In this document: positions 5,405 to 23,758 of the stretch, piece after piece
How positions within the stretch are numbered: position 1 is the stretch's first letter
How the letters are laid out: each line of letters begins with the position of its first letter
From: a virus
IMG/VR virus record: IMGVR_UViG_3300032285_000147
Location: 1 to 23,826 of that record
Length of the DNA: 23,826 bases
Reading direction: 5' to 3' (one strand)
Translations under genes and position numbers: made by a program
Notes under the pieces: model-generated
Seen by the model: the letters and a program-made list of their open reading frames with translations, nothing else
Told to the model about the DNA's origin: nothing
Databases searched by the model: none

Positions 5405-6475
5405 ATGGCGTACTCTGACACATACGGACAAACATATAACGTACAAACGTTGATTGACCACGGCGCTCGCCGATGCGGGAAACTTGCTGAAGAATTGACT
5501 TCTGAGCAAGTTCTGTCTGCTCGACAGTCTCTTGGGTTCTTGCTCTCTAACCTCATCAACCGCGGTATCCAATACTGGTGCATCAGCAAAGAGGTTATAG
5601 GGCTTACGCCAGACAAATACCGTTACACCCTACCTGATGGTGCTGTAGACACTTTAAACGTGCTGTACCGCACTATGACGCGTCCTGACGGGTCTTATTC
5701 ATCGTCCGCTGGTGGAGTTGTCGCAAACCTCTATGACGGTAATGTAAACACCTATTGCCAACAAAGTAGCGCAAACGGGAACTTCACGGTCAATTACGGT
5801 ACATCAAACCCTATCTACGCTGGTTCTATTGGGTTTTTACCCTATATCGCTGGTGGTGGGTCAGCTACTTGGAATATTTCGCTCCAATACTCGACTGACG
5901 GGTCAACTTTTACGACTTTGCAAAACCTTGGTGCGGTAGCTGTAACCGACAACACATGGGTGTGGACGGATATTGACCCCGGTCAAAACGTCGCTTTTTA
6001 CCGAATCGTCGCTTCTGGCGGGACTACTTTAGCCCTGCGCGAGTGGTATATCGGCGATAACAGCACTGAAGTGATGATGTCTCGCTTAAACCGTGACGAT
6101 TACACCAATCTTCCAAACAAAAACTTTACAGCGAACCAACCCTATCAGTTTTGGTTTGACCGTACGATTCCGAACCCCACGATTTATCTTTGGCCTACCC
6201 CAAGCAACGCATTTGTGCAAATGACGGTGTGGTATTCCACCCAAATCATGGATGTCGGGTCATTGACTAACGAGTTGCAGATACCTCAGCGTTGGTATGA
6301 GGCGGTTATTTTCATGCTGGCTCACCGTATGAGCCTCGAACTACCGTCTATTGGGTTAGACAGAATCAACTATCTTGAAAAGATGGCTGATAAATATTTG
6401 TACGAAGCGGAACAAGAAGAACGCGACAAGTCACCGATTTACTTCGCCCCTAACATTTCCGTCTACACGAGGTAA
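5405..6475 (+). CDS. Head-tail adaptor (P22 gp4-like) with an inserted discoidin-like domain
   Basis: This 356-residue protein starts at ATG 5405, three bases after the previous stop. Residues 1-95 (Gln-Thr-Leu-Ile-Asp-His-Gly near 14 and a helix with Ser-Ala-Arg-Gln-Ser-Leu near 38) and 226-356 (Pro-Gln-Arg-Trp-Tyr-Glu-Ala near 294, helical C-terminus) resemble phage head-tail adaptor or tail accessory proteins of the P22 gp4 type. Residues about 97-218 interrupt it with a Gly/Ser/Trp-rich beta domain (Asn-Leu-Tyr-Asp-Gly-Asn-Val-Asn-Thr-Tyr at 108-117, Leu-Gln-Tyr-Ser-Thr-Asp-Gly-Ser at 160-167) like an F5/8 type C (discoidin) carbohydrate-binding domain. The likely role is sealing or extending the portal. 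The inserted domain might bind sugar at the virion surface. An ordinary tail component is an alternative. Confidence 0.72.
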   Translation: MAYSDTYGQTYNVQTLIDHGARRCGKLAEELTSEQVLSARQSLGFLLSNLINRGIQYWCISKEVIGLTPDKYRYTLPDGAVDTLNVLYRTMTRPDGSYSSSAGGVVANLYDGNVNTYCQQSSANGNFTVNYGTSNPIYAGSIGFLPYIAGGGSATWNISLQYSTDGSTFTTLQNLGAVAVTDNTWVWTDIDPGQNVAFYRIVASGGTTLALREWYIGDNSTEVMMSRLNRDDYTNLPNKNFTANQPYQFWFDRTIPNPTIYLWPTPSNAFVQMTVWYSTQIMDVGSLTNELQIPQRWYEAVIFMLAHRMSLELPSIGLDRINYLEKMADKYLYEAEQEERDKSPIYFAPNISVYTR

Positions 6476-16287: not shown

Positions 16288-16926
16288 GTGACTACAGCCG
16301 TTGTAATGACTTATGACTCTTTAGTCAACAATATCCAAACTTACTTGGAACGGAACGACCCCACCACGGTGGCGTACATCCCTACCTTCATCATGTTGGC
16401 GGAGCAGAGCATCGCCGCGGAGATTAAATTCCTTGGTAACCTGACAGTCGCCAACAGCACAATGGTTTCAGGTAACGCTGTCATTGAGAAACCAGCCCGT
16501 TGGCACAAGACGGTTTCCATGAACGTGACTGACTCAGACGGTAACCGCCAACCCATTTTGCTCAGAACGTATGAGTATTTGAGGGAGTATTGGCCTAACT
16601 CCAGCCTGACTGGATTACCCGCCTATTACGCCGACTATGACTACACCCACTGGTTAGTCGCCCCTACACCCTCTACAACTTTCTCCTACGAGGTTTTGTA
16701 CTACGAACGAGTGCAACCCCTCGACACGACGAATCAGACCAACTGGTTTACGGTTTACGCTCCACAAGCGTTGTTGTATGGTTCTTTGTTGCAAGCGATG
16801 CCTTACCTCAAGAACGACGACCGCATCCCTATGTGGCAGGCTCAATACACGGCGATTATGAATTCGCTCAAGGCTGAAAACCTACAGCGTATTGGTGACC
16901 GCCAAGCAACGGTACTTGACACATGA
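16288..16926 (+). CDS. Head-tail adaptor (SU10-type, T7 gp11-like)
   Basis: The best start is GTG 16288, which has GGAG (16277-16280) seven bases upstream. ATG 16306 would begin at Met-Thr-Tyr-Asp, as some relatives may do, but has no binding site of its own. The protein (212 residues from GTG) has Tyr-Leu-Glu-Arg-Asn-Asp-Pro-Thr near 18-25, Met-Leu-Ala-Glu-Gln-Ser-Ile near 35, Arg-Trp-His-Lys-Thr-Val near 71, Thr-Tyr-Glu-Tyr-Leu-Arg-Glu-Tyr-Trp-Pro near 89, then Gly-Leu-Pro-Ala-Tyr-Tyr-Ala and Ala-Pro-Thr-Pro. These match the phage adaptor family of podophages. It joins portal and tail nozzle. It is encoded right before the fibre-like and nozzle genes, as expected. Confidence 0.8.
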   Translation: MTTAVVMTYDSLVNNIQTYLERNDPTTVAYIPTFIMLAEQSIAAEIKFLGNLTVANSTMVSGNAVIEKPARWHKTVSMNVTDSDGNRQPILLRTYEYLREYWPNSSLTGLPAYYADYDYTHWLVAPTPSTTFSYEVLYYERVQPLDTTNQTNWFTVYAPQALLYGSLLQAMPYLKNDDRIPMWQAQYTAIMNSLKAENLQRIGDRQATVLDT

Positions 16927-18158
16927 GTTTCACCAGCCCATTTACTGGCGACGTCATCCAACCAACGGACGTCAGTTACGCTTCCTACAACCTGACTGCA
17001 AATTTGCAGTTGTACTGGGCTGGTCTTGCGACGGGGACGGAGAGTCCCGCGGCTCGAATCATGGACGTTTACCAAAACGGTTCCTACACCCTTTCCATGC
17101 CTGACGCGACCCAAGTATCGGTCGGTGAAGACGCTCTCATCCGTAATACTAGTGGTAGTTCTGTCAGTGTTTTGAACTTTGCTGGAAGCGTTATTTGCAC
17201 CGTCGCAGGCGGAACCGCTCAATACATCTACTTGACAGCTAATACCACCGCAGGGGGTAACTGGGGTGTTATCGCTTTTGGTTCCACAACCTCTACAGCC
17301 AACGCTTCCCAGCTTGCTGGGCTTGGTTTGGTGGCGATTACCAACACCCTGAATCAAAGCCACCCAGTGGCTTCTTTTTCGACTGGTTACACTTTTACCG
17401 CAAATGACCGCGCCCAAACCAAGTTGTGGACAAGCGGAACTGGTACGGCTATCCTTCCTTTGGCGTCTACCCTTGGGAACAACTGGTTCTTCATATTTAA
17501 AAATGGAGCAACTGGAACTCTCACATTGACTTGTTCTGGGTCAGACACCATCGACGGCTTGTCTACCAAGATGTTCAATCCAGATGAATCCGCGTTCATC
17601 ATTTGTGACGGTACAAACTATTACTCAATTGGTTACGGTCAAAGCAATACGTTCTTTTTTACAGCTTTGGTTTACCCAGTAACGGGTGGTTCTTACACCC
17701 TGACGACTTACGACATCCAGTCAATCATTCAGGAGTACGTTGGAAACCTGACTTCTAACGTAACCGTTTACTACCCACCAGTGGTGAACCTTTACGTCAT
17801 CTCAAATCAGGTGACGGACAACGGTCATACGTTGACGGTAACGACTGGTATTACGGGAAGCGCGACGGCGATTATCCCCCCCGGGCAACAAGCAACCCTT
17901 GTCTGCGACGGAACTAACTTCTTCAACGCTAACACCGTTCAAGCTGGTGCGACCTCTTTGAACTTGGTCAACGGTACGGTAGGAACGCCTGCAATTAACT
18001 TTGCCTCTGAAACCAGTACAGGTATTTGGCGTTCTGGTTATGGATTATTTGACATTTCCATTCTTGGAACAAACCGATTTGAGTTGTCTCCAACTGGTTT
18101 GACCATTACTGGAACTGGAACATTCACTGGTGGTATCTCTGGGGGTACGTTTACATGA
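16923..18158 (+). CDS. Fibre-like structural protein between adaptor and nozzle genes
   Basis: This 411-residue protein starts at an ATGA overlap with the adaptor gene and ends at an ATGA overlap with the nozzle gene. It opens Met-Ser-Phe-Thr-Ser-Pro-Phe-Thr-Gly-Asp-Val-Ile-Gln-Pro. Residues about 20-120 and 165-240 carry beta-sandwich-like Ser/Thr/Gly motifs (Leu-Tyr-Trp-Ala-Gly-Leu near 30, Asn-Asn-Trp-Phe-Phe-Ile-Phe-Lys near 185). The C-terminus Gly-Gly-Ile-Ser-Gly-Gly-Thr-Phe resembles the end of the large fibre protein (Gly-Gly-Ile-Thr-Gly-Gly-Thr-Phe). It is likely a tail-attached fibre or tail spike base. It has no catalytic motif that I can see. Confidence 0.72.
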   Translation: MSFTSPFTGDVIQPTDVSYASYNLTANLQLYWAGLATGTESPAARIMDVYQNGSYTLSMPDATQVSVGEDALIRNTSGSSVSVLNFAGSVICTVAGGTAQYIYLTANTTAGGNWGVIAFGSTTSTANASQLAGLGLVAITNTLNQSHPVASFSTGYTFTANDRAQTKLWTSGTGTAILPLASTLGNNWFFIFKNGATGTLTLTCSGSDTIDGLSTKMFNPDESAFIICDGTNYYSIGYGQSNTFFFTALVYPVTGGSYTLTTYDIQSIIQEYVGNLTSNVTVYYPPVVNLYVISNQVTDNGHTLTVTTGITGSATAIIPPGQQATLVCDGTNFFNANTVQAGATSLNLVNGTVGTPAINFASETSTGIWRSGYGLFDISILGTNRFELSPTGLTITGTGTFTGGISGGTFT

Positions 18159-20155
18159 CGCAAAAGGTTTTTGCTTTAGATACCCAAGCAGGAGTTCAAC
18201 GCGACGGTACGGTATTTGACCGAAATTTTTACAACGACGGAAGATGGGTAAGGTTCCAAAGAACACGCCCACGAAAGATTCTTGGGTATCGTGAGATTAC
18301 GGCGAACTTGGCTGGCCCGTCCCGTGGTATTTACGTCAACCCTCAGAACGCTTTTTCCTACGTCTACAGCGGTTATTCTGATGGGTTGCAAGTCCTTCCA
18401 ATCAACAACGACGGTGTTGGTTCAGCGCTTCAAGACTATACGTTGACTGGTTTTACAGCAAGCGCAAATAACCTTTGGCAATTCGATTCGCTTTTCGATT
18501 CGCAAGGGACTGGATATGAGACGTTGTTGGCACACCCGGGGCAAAACCTCGCAGACATCAACAGCCAAGTAAACACCCCAGTCCTTGGTGGTTCGACAAG
18601 CGGAACCTCTTTATCCCCTATCGGTGTGTTTACCGCTACCGCTACCACGGTAAATACAAGCGCGACCATTACTCTATCTGTAGCGAATGCTTTGGTTGGA
18701 GCGGGTCAAACCGTTACTGGAACTGGTATTCCAGCCAACACAACTGTTGTATCTGTCAGCACCACAAGCGTAGTCATATCTAATCCAGCAACCGCAAGCG
18801 GTACGGTTACAGTCACTTTCAACAACAACATCAGCGTTTCTGGTGGTGTGGTTGTTTTGCATCCTTACATCTTTGTGTTTGGGAATAACGGACTCATCAA
18901 GAACAGTGGAGCAGGTAACCCTAGCGATTGGGTATCCGCGGACTCCAACGAGACCAACGTAGCGTCTACTAAGGTGGTTCAAGGTCTACCAGTGCGTGGT
19001 GGTTCTAACGCTCCATCTGGTCTGTTTTGGACGTTAGATTCTTTGGTAAGGGTTTCCTATACCCCAACCACCGTAACAGTGGCAGGAACTCCTCAGACGT
19101 TCTATTGGCGTTATGACATCATCTCTAGCCAATCATCCATCCTTTCTAGCCAATCTGTAATTGAGTACGACGGTATTTACTACTGGTGTGGTGTCGACCG
19201 CTTCTTGCTCTATAACGGTGTGGTTAAGGAAATCCCTAATACATTCAATCAGAACTACTTTTTTGACAACCTCAACTACGCTCAACGTCAAAAAGTCTAT
19301 GTGACCAAAGTTCCTCGTTATGGCGAGATTTGGTGGTTCTTCCCCAAGGGAGATTCGACTGAATGTAATGACGCAATCATCTACAACATCCGCGAACAAT
19401 GTTGGTATGACTCAGGTACAGCTTTGGGTGCGCGTCGTTCCGCTGGTTACTTCTCTCAAGTTTTCCACTATCCAATCAATGCAGGTTGGGAACCAAACGC
19501 AACTGGTGGAGTCAACGCTGTAACGATTTCCAACCAAGGTTCTGGATATACCAATGGTTCGTATCCACTTACCCCGTTAACTGGTGGTTCTGGAACTGGA
19601 GCATATGCCAATATAACCGTAGCTGGTGGAAAGGTAACGGTATGCACAATTGTCGCTCGTGGGACTGGATATACAACTGGAAATTCTTTATCCGCTTCCC
19701 TTCCCGCTGGAGCAGGATTTGTGTTGACAGTCAACTCAACCATGACCTTTGTATCCCTGTGGCAACACGAGACAGGGGTTGATGCGGTTAAGGGAAGTAA
19801 CGTAGTCGCGATTGAGAGTTACTTTGAAACAAGTGACTTGGGTTTTGTGGCTGGTGGGCCTGCCCAGCCAGCGATGATGGGTGACAACAAATGGGTTCGC
19901 GTGGAACGTGTGGAACCTGATTTTGTTCAGACTGGAACCATGTCTGTACAGATTACTGGTCGCCCATTTGCGCAATCCCAAGACGTGACATCTGACCCTT
20001 ACTACTTTGACCCAGATACGGGTAAGGTGGATATGAGGGAACAACGCCGTGAGATTAGATTGAAATTCACTAGCAATACGTCTGGTGGAAATTACCAAAT
20101 GGGTCGTGTAATGCTTGACGCTGAGTTTGGCGATACTCGTCCTTACGGAAGCTAA
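18155..20155 (+). CDS. Tail nozzle-like protein (T7 gp12 / P22 gp10-like) with two inserted domains
   Basis: This 666-residue protein has the pattern of the podophage nozzle or packaged-DNA stabilisation protein. The N-terminus has Asp-Gly-Arg-Trp-Val-Arg-Phe-Gln near 28-35, the middle Leu-His-Pro-Tyr-Ile-Phe-Val-Phe-Gly-Asn-Asn-Gly near 235-246, and the C-terminus Asp-Pro-Asp-Thr-Gly-Lys-Val-Asp-Met-Arg-Glu-Gln-Arg-Arg-Glu near 619-633, then Tyr-Gln-Met-Gly-Arg-Val-Met-Leu-Asp near 647-655. Two regions look foreign to this core: 157-223, an Ig-like Thr/Val segment, and 452-527, Gly/Thr-rich with two Gly-Tyr-Thr motifs. It would form the distal tail tube that seals and then guides DNA ejection. 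It follows the adaptor and fibre-like genes. Confidence 0.8.
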   Translation: MTQKVFALDTQAGVQRDGTVFDRNFYNDGRWVRFQRTRPRKILGYREITANLAGPSRGIYVNPQNAFSYVYSGYSDGLQVLPINNDGVGSALQDYTLTGFTASANNLWQFDSLFDSQGTGYETLLAHPGQNLADINSQVNTPVLGGSTSGTSLSPIGVFTATATTVNTSATITLSVANALVGAGQTVTGTGIPANTTVVSVSTTSVVISNPATASGTVTVTFNNNISVSGGVVVLHPYIFVFGNNGLIKNSGAGNPSDWVSADSNETNVASTKVVQGLPVRGGSNAPSGLFWTLDSLVRVSYTPTTVTVAGTPQTFYWRYDIISSQSSILSSQSVIEYDGIYYWCGVDRFLLYNGVVKEIPNTFNQNYFFDNLNYAQRQKVYVTKVPRYGEIWWFFPKGDSTECNDAIIYNIREQCWYDSGTALGARRSAGYFSQVFHYPINAGWEPNATGGVNAVTISNQGSGYTNGSYPLTPLTGGSGTGAYANITVAGGKVTVCTIVARGTGYTTGNSLSASLPAGAGFVLTVNSTMTFVSLWQHETGVDAVKGSNVVAIESYFETSDLGFVAGGPAQPAMMGDNKWVRVERVEPDFVQTGTMSVQITGRPFAQSQDVTSDPYYFDPDTGKVDMREQRREIRLKFTSNTSGGNYQMGRVMLDAEFGDTRPYGS

Positions 20156-20156
20156 C

Positions 20157-20417
20157 ATGGCACTGGCTCTTGTATATGACCCTCGCAATCACGACTTCCA
20201 GTCATGGGCGTCGTTGATGTGTGAGGCGTATGCAGGGCAACAACTGTCTATTCCGAACCAGCAAACAGACTGGAAGGAGTGGGGCGCGGGGCTAAAAGCC
20301 ATCGACGTCTTTGTAAACGAGGGCATTCCAGCCCCGTATATATATGAGAACTGGCAAGACTGGGCGGAAGCCTTAGTCGGAGCGGTCAATCAACCTACAG
20401 AGAGAACGGCAACATGA
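20157..20417 (+). CDS. Small Trp-rich phage protein after the nozzle gene
   Basis: ATG 20157 is preferred over an upstream in-frame TTG inside the nozzle gene. The 86-residue product has Trp in Phe-Gln-Ser-Trp-Ala near 14-18, Trp-Lys-Glu-Trp-Gly near 38-42 and Asn-Trp-Gln-Asp-Trp-Ala near 64-69. It looks like a small helical structural or assembly protein. The next gene starts at an ATGA overlap. It is the last gene before the acyl carrier protein. I do not recognise the function, though small genes near the end of the nozzle region often encode virion or ejection parts. Confidence 0.65.
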   Translation: MALALVYDPRNHDFQSWASLMCEAYAGQQLSIPNQQTDWKEWGAGLKAIDVFVNEGIPAPYIYENWQDWAEALVGAVNQPTERTAT

Positions 20418-20695
20418 ACTTCATAGAAATATTTAACTATGTGGCTAAGGTAGCGCGTCCAGCGCACTCCGTGCCAAGCATCGCTAAGGCGATGGAAGAT
20501 ACCTTTCAAGACATTGGACTTGACAGCCTTGACGGGTTAGTCATGCTTATGTATTTTGATGAACTTTACGGTATCGCTGATGAGGTAAGCAAAGAATGGA
20601 CACCAGCATCCGTTCAAGAGTTGCATGACCTTGTGATGGCAAACAAGACCAAAGAACCTGCTTCGATGGAAGAAGTCAAAGAGGTGTGCAAATGA
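20414..20695 (+). CDS. Acyl carrier protein (phosphopantetheine-binding)
   Basis: This 93-residue protein is an acyl carrier protein by sequence. The core motif Asp-Ile-Gly-Leu-Asp-Ser38-Leu-Asp near 33-40 is the phosphopantetheine site. A hydrophobic helix follows with Met-Leu-Met-Tyr-Phe-Asp-Glu-Leu-Tyr-Gly-Ile near 44-54, as in helix 2 of the family. Length (about 80-100) and acidic, helical character fit. Ser38 would carry the 4'-phosphopantetheine arm that holds growing acyl chains. It overlaps the ketosynthase gene by ATGA, and no phosphopantetheinyl transferase is seen in the window, so a host enzyme would be needed to activate it. It is expected to work with the adjacent ketosynthase. 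Confidence 0.88.
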   Translation: MNFIEIFNYVAKVARPAHSVPSIAKAMEDTFQDIGLDSLDGLVMLMYFDELYGIADEVSKEWTPASVQELHDLVMANKTKEPASMEEVKEVCK

Positions 20696-21804
20696 TATTT
20701 TTGACACACTACCGTACGGCTTGCACGCAAACCGTAGAGTTATTTGACGACATCATCTACCCCCAAAAGGTAAATTGGTTCCCAGACACCTACAACCGAA
20801 CCAAATCTGGTTTGGTCTACGTCCCCCACAAACTGGCGGAAAAAGTCCTTGACCCTGAACTGTTGACGTATCTAAGGGAAAACCCTGTAGGTAAGACAGC
20901 GTTCATTCTTGCTGGTGGAAACGCGCACTTTGCTGGCATCGGTCAACGTGAGTACAACTCTCGTCTGACCTACACCTACAAATTCTTGCCATTCACGTTG
21001 ACGCAAGTCTATGCAGGTCGTATCGCTCAATCCTTTGGGGATATGGATATGGTCACCACCGATGCCAGCGCCTGCGCTTCTAGCCTCAAGGTGATGATGG
21101 ATGTGACCAACCTAATTGATTTTTACGATTACAAACGTGTAATCGTTCTGACGGTAGAGGATGGGGTGTCAAACGCGGTTCTAGAGTTCTTTGGCGACTC
21201 CAAGGCGGTTTTGACTGAAAAACAAGAACAAGAGGGAATAAAGCCATCCGCTTTCGACTCGACAAACTTTGGGTTTCGTGTGGGGCAGGGGGCGGCGCTC
21301 GCTGTCTTTGAGTCCCTCGACGCTACACGCCAACAAAAGATTGACCCTCACGCTCGTCTAGTGGGCGCATATAGCGCTTCAGAACGCTCTACAAACGCTA
21401 TTGGGCAATGTGAGGATGGTGAGGGGTTCATTAAAGCCATAGAAGGCGCTATTCACTATGGCAATATTTCCCCTGATGAGATTAAAATAGTCAAAACCCA
21501 CGGTACTGGAACGGCGTCCAACAACAAAGCTGAAAAGAATGCTTTGAACCAAACGCTAAAAGCATTCGTTGCTACATCGTATAAACAAAAAATTGGTCAT
21601 ACGATGGGAAGTAGCGGATTGCTCGAAACACTTTTATTGTTAGATAACATTAAGTCAGGTGTTGTTCCAGCGATTGAGAATCGAACCGAAACCGACTCGG
21701 TATTCCTTTCGGAATCGACAACACCACCCAATGGCTTGATAATGAGTTTGGCGGCAGGGATGGGCAACATCTACTCCGCCGCAATCTTTAAGGGGATGTG
21801 GTGA
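20692..21804 (+). CDS. Beta-ketoacyl-ACP synthase (KAS I/II-like)
   Basis: Start ATG 20692 is preferred, six bases after a GAGG site, giving 370 residues. Residues Asp124-Ala-Ser-Ala-Cys128-Ala-Ser-Ser hold the active-site cysteine. Thr269-His270-Gly-Thr-Gly-Thr holds the first catalytic histidine and Gly302-His303-Thr-Met-Gly the second, with Lys298 five residues before it. Gly194-Phe-Arg-Val-Gly-Gln-Gly-Ala also matches the family. Spacings (Cys to His 142, His to His 33) fit KAS enzymes. The N-terminus is about 35 residues shorter than in FabF, and the family's Gly-Phe-Gly-Gly-Thr-Asn loop is replaced by Ala-Ala-Gly-Met-Gly-Asn near 354-359. It would condense malonyl-ACP (or a similar extender) onto an acyl thioester. 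No other fatty acid synthesis gene is seen in this window. Confidence 0.88.
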   Translation: MIFLTHYRTACTQTVELFDDIIYPQKVNWFPDTYNRTKSGLVYVPHKLAEKVLDPELLTYLRENPVGKTAFILAGGNAHFAGIGQREYNSRLTYTYKFLPFTLTQVYAGRIAQSFGDMDMVTTDASACASSLKVMMDVTNLIDFYDYKRVIVLTVEDGVSNAVLEFFGDSKAVLTEKQEQEGIKPSAFDSTNFGFRVGQGAALAVFESLDATRQQKIDPHARLVGAYSASERSTNAIGQCEDGEGFIKAIEGAIHYGNISPDEIKIVKTHGTGTASNNKAEKNALNQTLKAFVATSYKQKIGHTMGSSGLLETLLLLDNIKSGVVPAIENRTETDSVFLSESTTPPNGLIMSLAAGMGNIYSAAIFKGMW

Positions 21805-22253
21805 TGCTGGTCGATAGCAAAAAGAAACAATTGAGTGAGCAAGCAATCCTGATGATTGCCGCTCAGGAGACCAAGTCCCCTCATCCAGCTTCTACCGTCT
21901 ACGCTACCCTCATCAAAGAGATGAACATGGTTGGCGTGTCTGTCGTTCGTGACGGTAACACTTTATTTGTTGTCCACAGTGTAGAAGGTCGTGTAGGTTA
22001 TTTCCGCGCTCTCAATGCTGACACCCCTCGTAACTATTTAGAAAACTCGTACGCGTTCATCCAAGGCGCTTACAAGATGGGATTTGACACTCTTGTGAGT
22101 GAGTTTGAAGACCCAACGATTATGAATATTTTTAAAGCAATCTCTCGCAACCCTCCTCAAGATGACATGGGGTATCGCGCCGAGAAGACCGACAAGGGGT
22201 TCCGCGTTACGGTCAAGTTAGGGCCAAAACGCCCTGAAAGGGAAGAGCAATGA
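21804..22253 (+). CDS. GNAT-like small protein, T7 gp13-like
   Basis: ATG 21804 is chosen because AGGGG (21791-21795) is eight bases before it. The ATG shares its first base with the ketosynthase TGA. The 149-residue protein has a strand pattern ending in Val-Gly-Tyr-Phe-Arg-Ala-Leu near 64-70, a helix Glu-Asn-Ser-Tyr-Ala-Phe-Ile-Gln-Gly-Ala-Tyr near 80-90, the next strand Phe-Asp-Thr-Leu-Val-Ser-Glu-Phe near 94-101, then Asn-Ile-Phe-Lys-Ala-Ile-Ser near 108-114. This looks like the GNAT fold. A clear acetyl-CoA binding motif (Gln/Arg-x-x-Gly-x-Gly/Ala) is not evident. In T7-type phages the gene after the nozzle gene encodes a GNAT-like internal virion protein (gp13), and this may be its counterpart. 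It could instead be an acyl-ACP-using acyltransferase. Confidence 0.6.
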   Translation: MLVDSKKKQLSEQAILMIAAQETKSPHPASTVYATLIKEMNMVGVSVVRDGNTLFVVHSVEGRVGYFRALNADTPRNYLENSYAFIQGAYKMGFDTLVSEFEDPTIMNIFKAISRNPPQDDMGYRAEKTDKGFRVTVKLGPKRPEREEQ

Positions 22254-23758
22254 GTGCTGTAGTTGAAGCCGTATCGAACGTAGTTAGCAGTGTCGTTGAC
22301 ACTGTTGGTAGCGCTGTCGATGCGGTGGGTGACGCTGTTACCACGGTTGTAAACAAAATTGGTGACGTTGCACAAAAAGTAATTGATAACCCTGTACCCG
22401 TATTGTTAGCGGTCGCTGGTCAAGCGGTTGGTATTCCTGCACCGTTGACTATGGGGATGATTACCGCCGCTCAGGGCGGAAGCCTCGAAGACATCGCTCT
22501 ATCCGCTGGTACTGCTTATCTTGCTCCATCCGTCGGAAGTTCTTTGACGACTACTTTCTCTGAAACCCTTGTCGACGCTGGTTTGAGCCAAACTACTTCT
22601 GACGTTGTCGCTTACTCAACTAGCAAAGGATTGGTCAACGGAGCAATCGCTGAAGCTAAAGGTGGTAGTTTTGATGATGGATTTGCTGGTGGATTTACTG
22701 GTGGTGTTGTTGGTAGTGGCGTAGGAGCGGTAACCGACTATGTTAAACCTGACGTCATCCAAATGGCTCAAGACAATGGTGTTGACCTCAAAGACGCTAA
22801 TACAGCGTTCAATTCCGCTACTAAAGCATTGTCCGCAGGTGTAACCGCAGGCGTTACAGGAAAAGACTTTGCTACAGCATTTACCAATAGCGCAATCGGT
22901 TCTACGGTTGACGCTGGTGGTCGTTCTGTTAACTCCGCTATTGATACCCAGTTTGCTGACGCAACTCAAAAGTGGAATGAAAAAGACCCAGAGAACCCAA
23001 TTCCACCAACTCCTACTTCTGGTGCTGGTGTACCAAGCGACATAGTCAATGCAGTCAAAGTATCTGACACTGGAGTTGATTCCAAACCAGTTGACACACC
23101 TCCTGAGAATGTCGCAGACGTCAAAGTTCTTCCAGAGGTAGCAACTCCTAATCCTACGGTTTCCTCAGACGCAATCATGGCTCAGGCTCCAAAAGCCGAG
23201 ACGGTAACTGACATTGCTAAACCTGATGTTGCTCCCACAGATGTGACTCCTCCTGCACCACCTGTTGGTGGGTTAGCGTCTACAACTGATACAGATAAAC
23301 CTGTTGACTTGTCTAGTATTACAAGTCCTATCGTCGCTTCAACCCCAGATGCTCCTGTAATTTCTGAGGCTCCAGTTGCAACTAACTTGTTGCAAACCCC
23401 TGATAGCCAAACCCCACCTGCTGGTGGTTTGAATACTGTCAAGACGGCTGATGACAAGTTAGCTGAAGCGCAGGGATTAAAAGCTACTGACGTCACCAAA
23501 CCTTTGGTTGCGACCGTTGGAAGTATGTTGAAGTCAGCGTTGACTCAAAAGGCTCCTACTAAACCCGCTGGCGGTTTGCAAATCGCGAGCGCTAAACCTC
23601 GTATGCCTACTCCACCTCCAGCGAGGATGGATGTATCCAAGTTGATTCCAATCCAAAGGGCTGGTGCTATGCCTCCAAAGAGTTTGCCTAGCACCGCAAA
23701 ATTAAGTCCTGTGACCAATATCGCAGGGTTGTCCGCATTGTTGAAAAAGACTGGGTAA
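22250..23758 (+). CDS. Putative internal virion / DNA ejection protein
   Basis: This 502-residue protein starts at an ATGA overlap with the GNAT-like gene. The first 70 residues are Val/Ala/Gly-rich amphipathic repeats (Val-Ser-Ser-Val-Val-Asp-Thr-Val-Gly, Val-Asp-Ala-Val-Gly-Asp-Ala-Val) that could insert into a membrane. Residues about 75-240 contain Gly-Gly-Ser-Leu-Glu-Asp-Ile-Ala-Leu-Ser-Ala-Gly and Gly-Gly-Phe-Thr-Gly-Gly-Val-Val, like small ejection-type phage proteins. From about 245 onward it is Pro/Thr/Ala-rich and likely disordered. It lies where T7 places gp14, the internal core protein gene. A channel or ejection role is inferred from position and composition, not from a family match. 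Confidence 0.68.
   Translation: MSAVVEAVSNVVSSVVDTVGSAVDAVGDAVTTVVNKIGDVAQKVIDNPVPVLLAVAGQAVGIPAPLTMGMITAAQGGSLEDIALSAGTAYLAPSVGSSLTTTFSETLVDAGLSQTTSDVVAYSTSKGLVNGAIAEAKGGSFDDGFAGGFTGGVVGSGVGAVTDYVKPDVIQMAQDNGVDLKDANTAFNSATKALSAGVTAGVTGKDFATAFTNSAIGSTVDAGGRSVNSAIDTQFADATQKWNEKDPENPIPPTPTSGAGVPSDIVNAVKVSDTGVDSKPVDTPPENVADVKVLPEVATPNPTVSSDAIMAQAPKAETVTDIAKPDVAPTDVTPPAPPVGGLASTTDTDKPVDLSSITSPIVASTPDAPVISEAPVATNLLQTPDSQTPPAGGLNTVKTADDKLAEAQGLKATDVTKPLVATVGSMLKSALTQKAPTKPAGGLQIASAKPRMPTPPPARMDVSKLIPIQRAGAMPPKSLPSTAKLSPVTNIAGLSALLKKTG

Follow-up and report, generated by a model that had tools for sequence, protein, structure and literature searches.

The window, meaning the whole stretch of DNA analyzed here, corresponds to an IMG/VR virus record, 23,826 bases long, and carries genes for major capsid, adaptor, tail, and hub proteins. 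Its hub gene, for a hub/nozzle-like tail virion protein (18155..20155, + strand; phrog_3287), is directly followed by a conserved small gene of 86 aa (20157..20417, +), an acyl carrier protein (ACP; 93 aa, 20414..20695, +), a ketosynthase of the KAS I/II type (KAS; 370 aa, 20692..21804, +), a conserved 149-aa protein (21804..22253, +), and a 502-aa protein (22250..23758, +). The 86-aa gene forms the left border of the slot that holds ACP and KAS, and in the lineage of the window the 149-aa gene forms its right border. The 502-aa protein, encoded after the slot, is by position a putative ejection or internal virion protein, with a weak match to the tape-measure family phrog_1272 (0.014).

Every joint within the chain from the 86-aa gene through ACP and KAS to the 149-aa gene is an ATGA or a TGATG. 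The ACP start lies in an ATGA overlap with the preceding 86-aa gene, the KAS start codon (ATG at 20692) overlaps the ACP stop (ATGA, 20692-20695), and the final A of the KAS stop (TGA, 21802-21804) is common to the ATG of the 149-aa gene (TGATG). A sequence-only reading of the window had placed an ACP and a KAS with these overlaps at these positions, and we recovered both open reading frames and both kinds of overlap. Its label of "gp13-like" for the 149-aa gene, on the other hand, was unsupported: comparison with the T7 gp13 profile (hhalign) gave a probability of 0.2%, and Pfam and the PDB yielded no significant match. We also set aside the 149-aa gene as a GNAT acyltransferase, which would have completed a route to virion acylation, given that no GNAT match was found in Pfam, PHROGs, or the PDB and that the gene also occurs without ACP-KAS.

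Elsewhere in the window, two genes (5405-6475 and 16288-16926) gave matches to PF24175, the SU10 adaptor family, slightly below the cut-off in the first case; the product of 5405-6475 also carries an F5/8 type C (discoidin-like) segment. Residues ∼446-549 of the hub protein match parts of many tail and virion families (phrog_5342, 6005, and 438).

The Ketosynthase and Its Carrier Protein

The KAS scored above the Pfam cut-off for both ketoacyl-synthase domains (PF02801, 1e-14; PF00109, 2e-8), and its AF2 model (pLDDT 91.9) has a thiolase fold. The nearest solved folds by Foldseek were the actinorhodin ketosynthase and many FabF structures, with TM scores of 0.7-0.8, and the AntDE ketosynthase was also among them. 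Against the NCBIfam fabF equivalog TIGR03150 the protein reached 109.7 bits, short of the curated cut-off of 493.75, and a further sub-cut-off profile match was to the acyltransferase-type KAS AmcF. In the alignment, phage residues C128, H270, T272, T274, K298, H303, and E312 correspond to C163, H303, T305, T307, K335, H340, and E349 of E. coli FabF. The catalytic residues named in the sequence-only reading, ACP Ser38 and KAS Cys128 (codon 21073-21075), His270 (21499-21501), Lys298 (21583-21585), and His303 (21598-21600), were the right ones. On this alignment the phage KAS retains the whole decarboxylating set of FabB/FabF-type KAS I/II enzymes, with the activity itself predicted.

The protein nevertheless differs from its cellular counterparts. 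Phage KAS and FabF/FabB have in common the thiolase fold, the Cys-His-His-Lys set, the Thr pair, and a partner ACP, but E. coli FabF is only ∼21% identical to the phage KAS, and FabF and FabB are 406-430 aa long, as against 370 aa for the phage enzyme with its own, shorter N-terminal region. These N-terminal ∼95 residues could not be aligned to cellular KAS, for which matches begin near residue 73-106. The gate loop (G356-M357-G358-N359 in the window) reads GMGN in all 110 phage KAS, whereas it is GFGG (GFGGTN in FabF/FabB) in 40 of the 41 cellular KAS compared, that is, in all for which the loop was readable.

By sequence the ACP is a weak match to its family, at 13.8 bits (E 0.07) against a curated cut-off of 20.8 for Pfam PF00550, which it therefore did not reach; it gave 0.0017 against TIGR00517 and a weak match (E 0.003) to the phage-ACP family phrog_5934. 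Features of the ACP class are present, namely a helical bundle and a DSL-motif serine at the start of helix II (Ser38, codon 20525-20527, within DSLD). The predicted structure (pLDDT 92.6) is an ACP-like bundle of helices, extended at the C terminus by a further helix (residues 85-92), and its best PDB matches were nearly all acyl carrier proteins, with modest E-values of 0.02-0.2.

Distribution, Pairing, and Genomic Context

Relatives of the KAS are encoded by 387 viral contigs, and further scans extended the family down to 49% pairwise identity. The sequence-only reading had suggested a check of related phage genomes for the same gene pair at the same place; in 80 fetched loci the order 86-aa gene, ACP, KAS, 149-aa gene was kept wherever both flanks were on the contig. 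The ACP lies directly upstream in 128 of the 129 loci with a complete KAS open reading frame; in the sole locus without it (L099) the KAS begins 106 bases from the contig end. ACP and KAS are thus inseparable wherever this could be checked. Misassembly of host and phage DNA can be dismissed, since identical junctions turn up in over 100 contigs that were assembled independently.

Loss of the catalytic cysteine or the ACP serine in relatives had been named as evidence against acyl chemistry, and neither residue is lost in any relative. All 147 ACP loci have Ser38 within DS[LM]D, and C128, H270, T272, T274, K298, H303, and E312 are invariant across 110 distinct KAS. Median dN/dS against close relatives was 0.057 for KAS and 0.074 for ACP, lower than in the genes on either side (0.083 and 0.145); these values are rough because dS is near saturation. 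Both genes of the pair are under strong purifying selection.

Two members of the family are found in public databases under annotation labels only: UOF78413, from the GenBank record MW202545.1 (Caudoviricetes sp. ctpbd312, Manatee Spring), where the ACP is labeled hypothetical, and the BFVD entry A0A6J7X0R1 ("FabB," uncultured Caudovirales phage). They belong to the family with 62 and 65% identity, respectively. The annotated UOF78413 coding sequence (L082, 22437-23381) seems to be ∼52 codons short, with a start near 23537 suggested by homology and by overlap with the ACP.

Taking the hub gene as an anchor, we fetched 79 further hub relatives, only six of which carried ACP or KAS, although some of the others end shortly past the hub and are uninformative. 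Phages such as L247, L211, and L263 have an empty slot, in which the hub and the 86-aa gene are followed by the relative of the 149-aa gene with nothing between. In L247 the identity is 62% for the hub, 66% for the small gene, and 44% for the next gene, and the matches lie 35 bp apart. In other phages the slot holds a metal-dependent hydrolase (PF10118, E 5e-44 in L250; same cluster in L224, L259, L266, and L270), a glycosyltransferase (PF11397, E 4e-54 in L269; same cluster in L257 and L260), or small proteins that match no Pfam family significantly. Eleven hub relatives whose slot lacks the pair, including four of at least 54 kb, contain no KAS elsewhere in the record either. The 86-aa gene also follows the hub in phages without ACP-KAS, and the 149-aa gene is neither required for nor confined to phages that have the pair. 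ACP-KAS is therefore accessory cargo, missing from close relatives in which the site is otherwise conserved. A slot between the 86-aa gene and the ejection genes was seen across a large phage group (L194-L272).

The pair also occurs outside the late operon, in L107, L103, and L108. In L107 and L103 a SNF2-type helicase gene precedes the pair and overlaps the ACP start by an ATGA. Genes for a VRR_NUC nuclease and a D5-type primase (PriCT_2/D5_N) are located upstream, and those downstream encode DUF2800 and an Enc34-type ssDNA-binding protein. ATGA coupling is present in the late-operon and the replication-module contexts alike. L108 and L113 have the same kind of gene 3′ of KAS, for a conserved protein of 98-103 aa in this replication-module lineage (9101-9397 in L107, 2199-2510 in L113) that has no Pfam match. 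ACP and KAS thus travel as a pair that is not tied to virion genes, and the loci L103, L107, L108, and L113 show that it is not found only alongside structural genes, as would be expected of a virion component.

Relationship to Cellular Enzymes and Published Systems

A tree of KAS families, suggested in the sequence-only reading, was built by maximum likelihood. It placed 26 phage KAS in one separate, virus-only group (support 100/100), outside the cellular FabF and FabB clades and at the end of a very long branch. The root of this tree is arbitrary and a neighboring cellular row (L317) carries a long-branch warning, so that the phage KAS are not assigned a sister group. An alignment scan of genome contigs returned no relatives, and in a two-row alignment search the matches were all KAS that did not exceed 29% identity, from actinomycetes among other sources. 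Among 696 sampled genomes from two phyla there were only generic KAS, aligning from residue ∼73-106 onward. Sequence comparison therefore does not point to recent acquisition from a host, with no close cellular homolog in these searches and a clade made up of viruses only. Transfer RNAs and composition gave no informative clue to the host.

KAS matches of 22-30% identity in phage-labeled records from Listeria, Enterococcus, Staphylococcus, Acinetobacter, and others were set aside. One such record (L180; CAKLQF020000022.1, "Acinetobacter phage MD-2021a") carries fusA, rpsG, rpsL, and nadE and is bacterial chromosome, its KAS match being a host gene.

The sequence-only reading had left it undecided whether such pairs have been described in phages. 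Phage ACPs are known and have been called auxiliary metabolic genes (PMC5463345, PMC11705849); the ACPs of Erythrobacter phage vB_EliS-R6L (ORF32; PMC5463345) and Alteromonas phage R22Y (gp30; PMC11705849) are likewise small but were reported without mention of a ketosynthase, whereas the ACP described here is always coupled to KAS. An arrangement fabG-acpP-fabF has been reported from a Rhodobacteraceae prophage (PMC8224337), in the bacterial core-operon order (cf. E. coli) and thus unlike the phage ACP-KAS. Freshwater pelagimyophages have been mentioned to carry fabF (PMC7029224), and fabF calls have been made in viromes (PMC10653327, PMC12783922). These published phage and prophage fabF genes also place a condensing enzyme in a viral context, but none of the descriptions is of a KAS clade that is confined to viruses and paired with a dedicated ACP in a cargo slot. 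We found no paper on ACP-KAS as a family in the open-access literature searched; phage ACPs and fabF calls are thus published, while a virus-only ACP-KAS clade was not found described.

Possible Roles of the Pair

We searched 20 long relatives for partner enzymes and found no phosphopantetheinyl transferase (PPTase, PF01648), ketoreductase-type SDR (PF00106), or malonyl/acyl transferase (PF00698), although positive controls were detected; these records may be incomplete. A PF00583 match occurred in one of the 20, away from the ACP-KAS locus. Since no PPTase, reductase, or acyltransferase of its own was found, loading and reduction are presumably left to enzymes of the host. We favor, at a probability of roughly 0.58, a portable two-gene auxiliary module, in which a dedicated ACP and a decarboxylating condensing enzyme act on the host acyl-ACP pool and are not a required part of the virion. 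This explanation rests on the pairing, the conserved residues, the predicted folds, selection, dispensability, and portability. A host PPTase would add 4′-phosphopantetheine to Ser38 of the phage ACP, and host FabD or acyl transfer would load it with malonyl or acyl groups. Cys128 of the KAS would then accept an acyl chain, and with His270/His303 and Lys298 the enzyme would decarboxylate malonyl-ACP and condense the two to 3-oxoacyl-ACP; the machinery for this step is seen in the sequence and the model. Reduction by host FabG, FabZ, and FabI could lead to extra or altered elongation and a changed acyl or lipid supply during infection.

The substrates may, however, not be ordinary fatty acyl chains, as suggested by the GMGN gate, the novel N-terminus, and the long branch. 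It is conceivable, if unlikely, that the pair makes a phage-specific acyl product outside the ordinary fatty-acid cycle, such as a β-keto acid, a short signal, or a C-N or C-O conjugate. An unusual second substrate would fit the invariant gate and the N-terminal region, no ketoreductase of the phage's own was found, and the nearest folds (actinorhodin KS, AntDE) and the sub-cut-off AmcF match noted above lean the same way; yet both His, the Lys, and the Thr pair of the decarboxylation set are all retained, like those of fatty-acid KAS, and no release or tailoring gene accompanies the pair in both contexts. A broader and equally tentative proposal, which we hold to be a minority possibility, is that of a virus-exclusive condensing subfamily, long co-evolved with its own ACP, that makes a product absent from cellular pathways and serves as swappable cargo in late operons and replication modules. 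If this were true, the product would be an unusual lipid or else an acyl metabolite specific to the phage.

Rather improbable is a role in host takeover, in which the pair draws off or sequesters malonyl, acyl, or phosphopantetheine groups of the host and thereby slows host fatty-acid synthesis. Only one cycle enzyme and a carrier are encoded, and malonyl-ACP would be drained by futile condensation, but the strictly kept catalytic set suggests that a product matters, and takeover genes are usually early, whereas most ACP-KAS copies lie in a late operon. The sequence-only reading had favored late, virion-linked acyl chemistry. Its chemical half stands as plausible, with an ACP and a catalytically complete KAS in a phage late operon making elongation credible; the link to the virion is unsupported. 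That the pair readies an acyl group for a virion or ejection protein, as its position between hub and ejection genes and, in most loci, the translationally coupled gene that follows might suggest, is in our view quite improbable. No acyltransferase was identified in the 20 long relatives (PF00698 absent, the single PF00583 match off-locus) or in the next gene, and most related phages make the same structural genes with the slot empty or otherwise filled; the main evidence against it is the one lineage whose pair sits in a replication module. The structural-gene neighborhood and the high divergence of the KAS could be cited for reuse without catalysis, in a structural or scaffolding role. This is scarcely credible, given that the catalytic residues of both partners are invariant even where KAS share as little as 49% pairwise identity.

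Phage lipid genes are usually discussed as host-derived. ACP-KAS is instead a deep virus-only enzyme clade that has kept its active-site residues, brings its own carrier, and is spread over hundreds of environmental contigs, and its locus marks a cargo slot that holds other enzymes in related phages. Why a phage would want its own acyl condensation is directly testable with two small proteins. The portable-module reading implies that these phages probably supply the infected cell with a carbon-chain-joining step of their own and do not build it into the particle.
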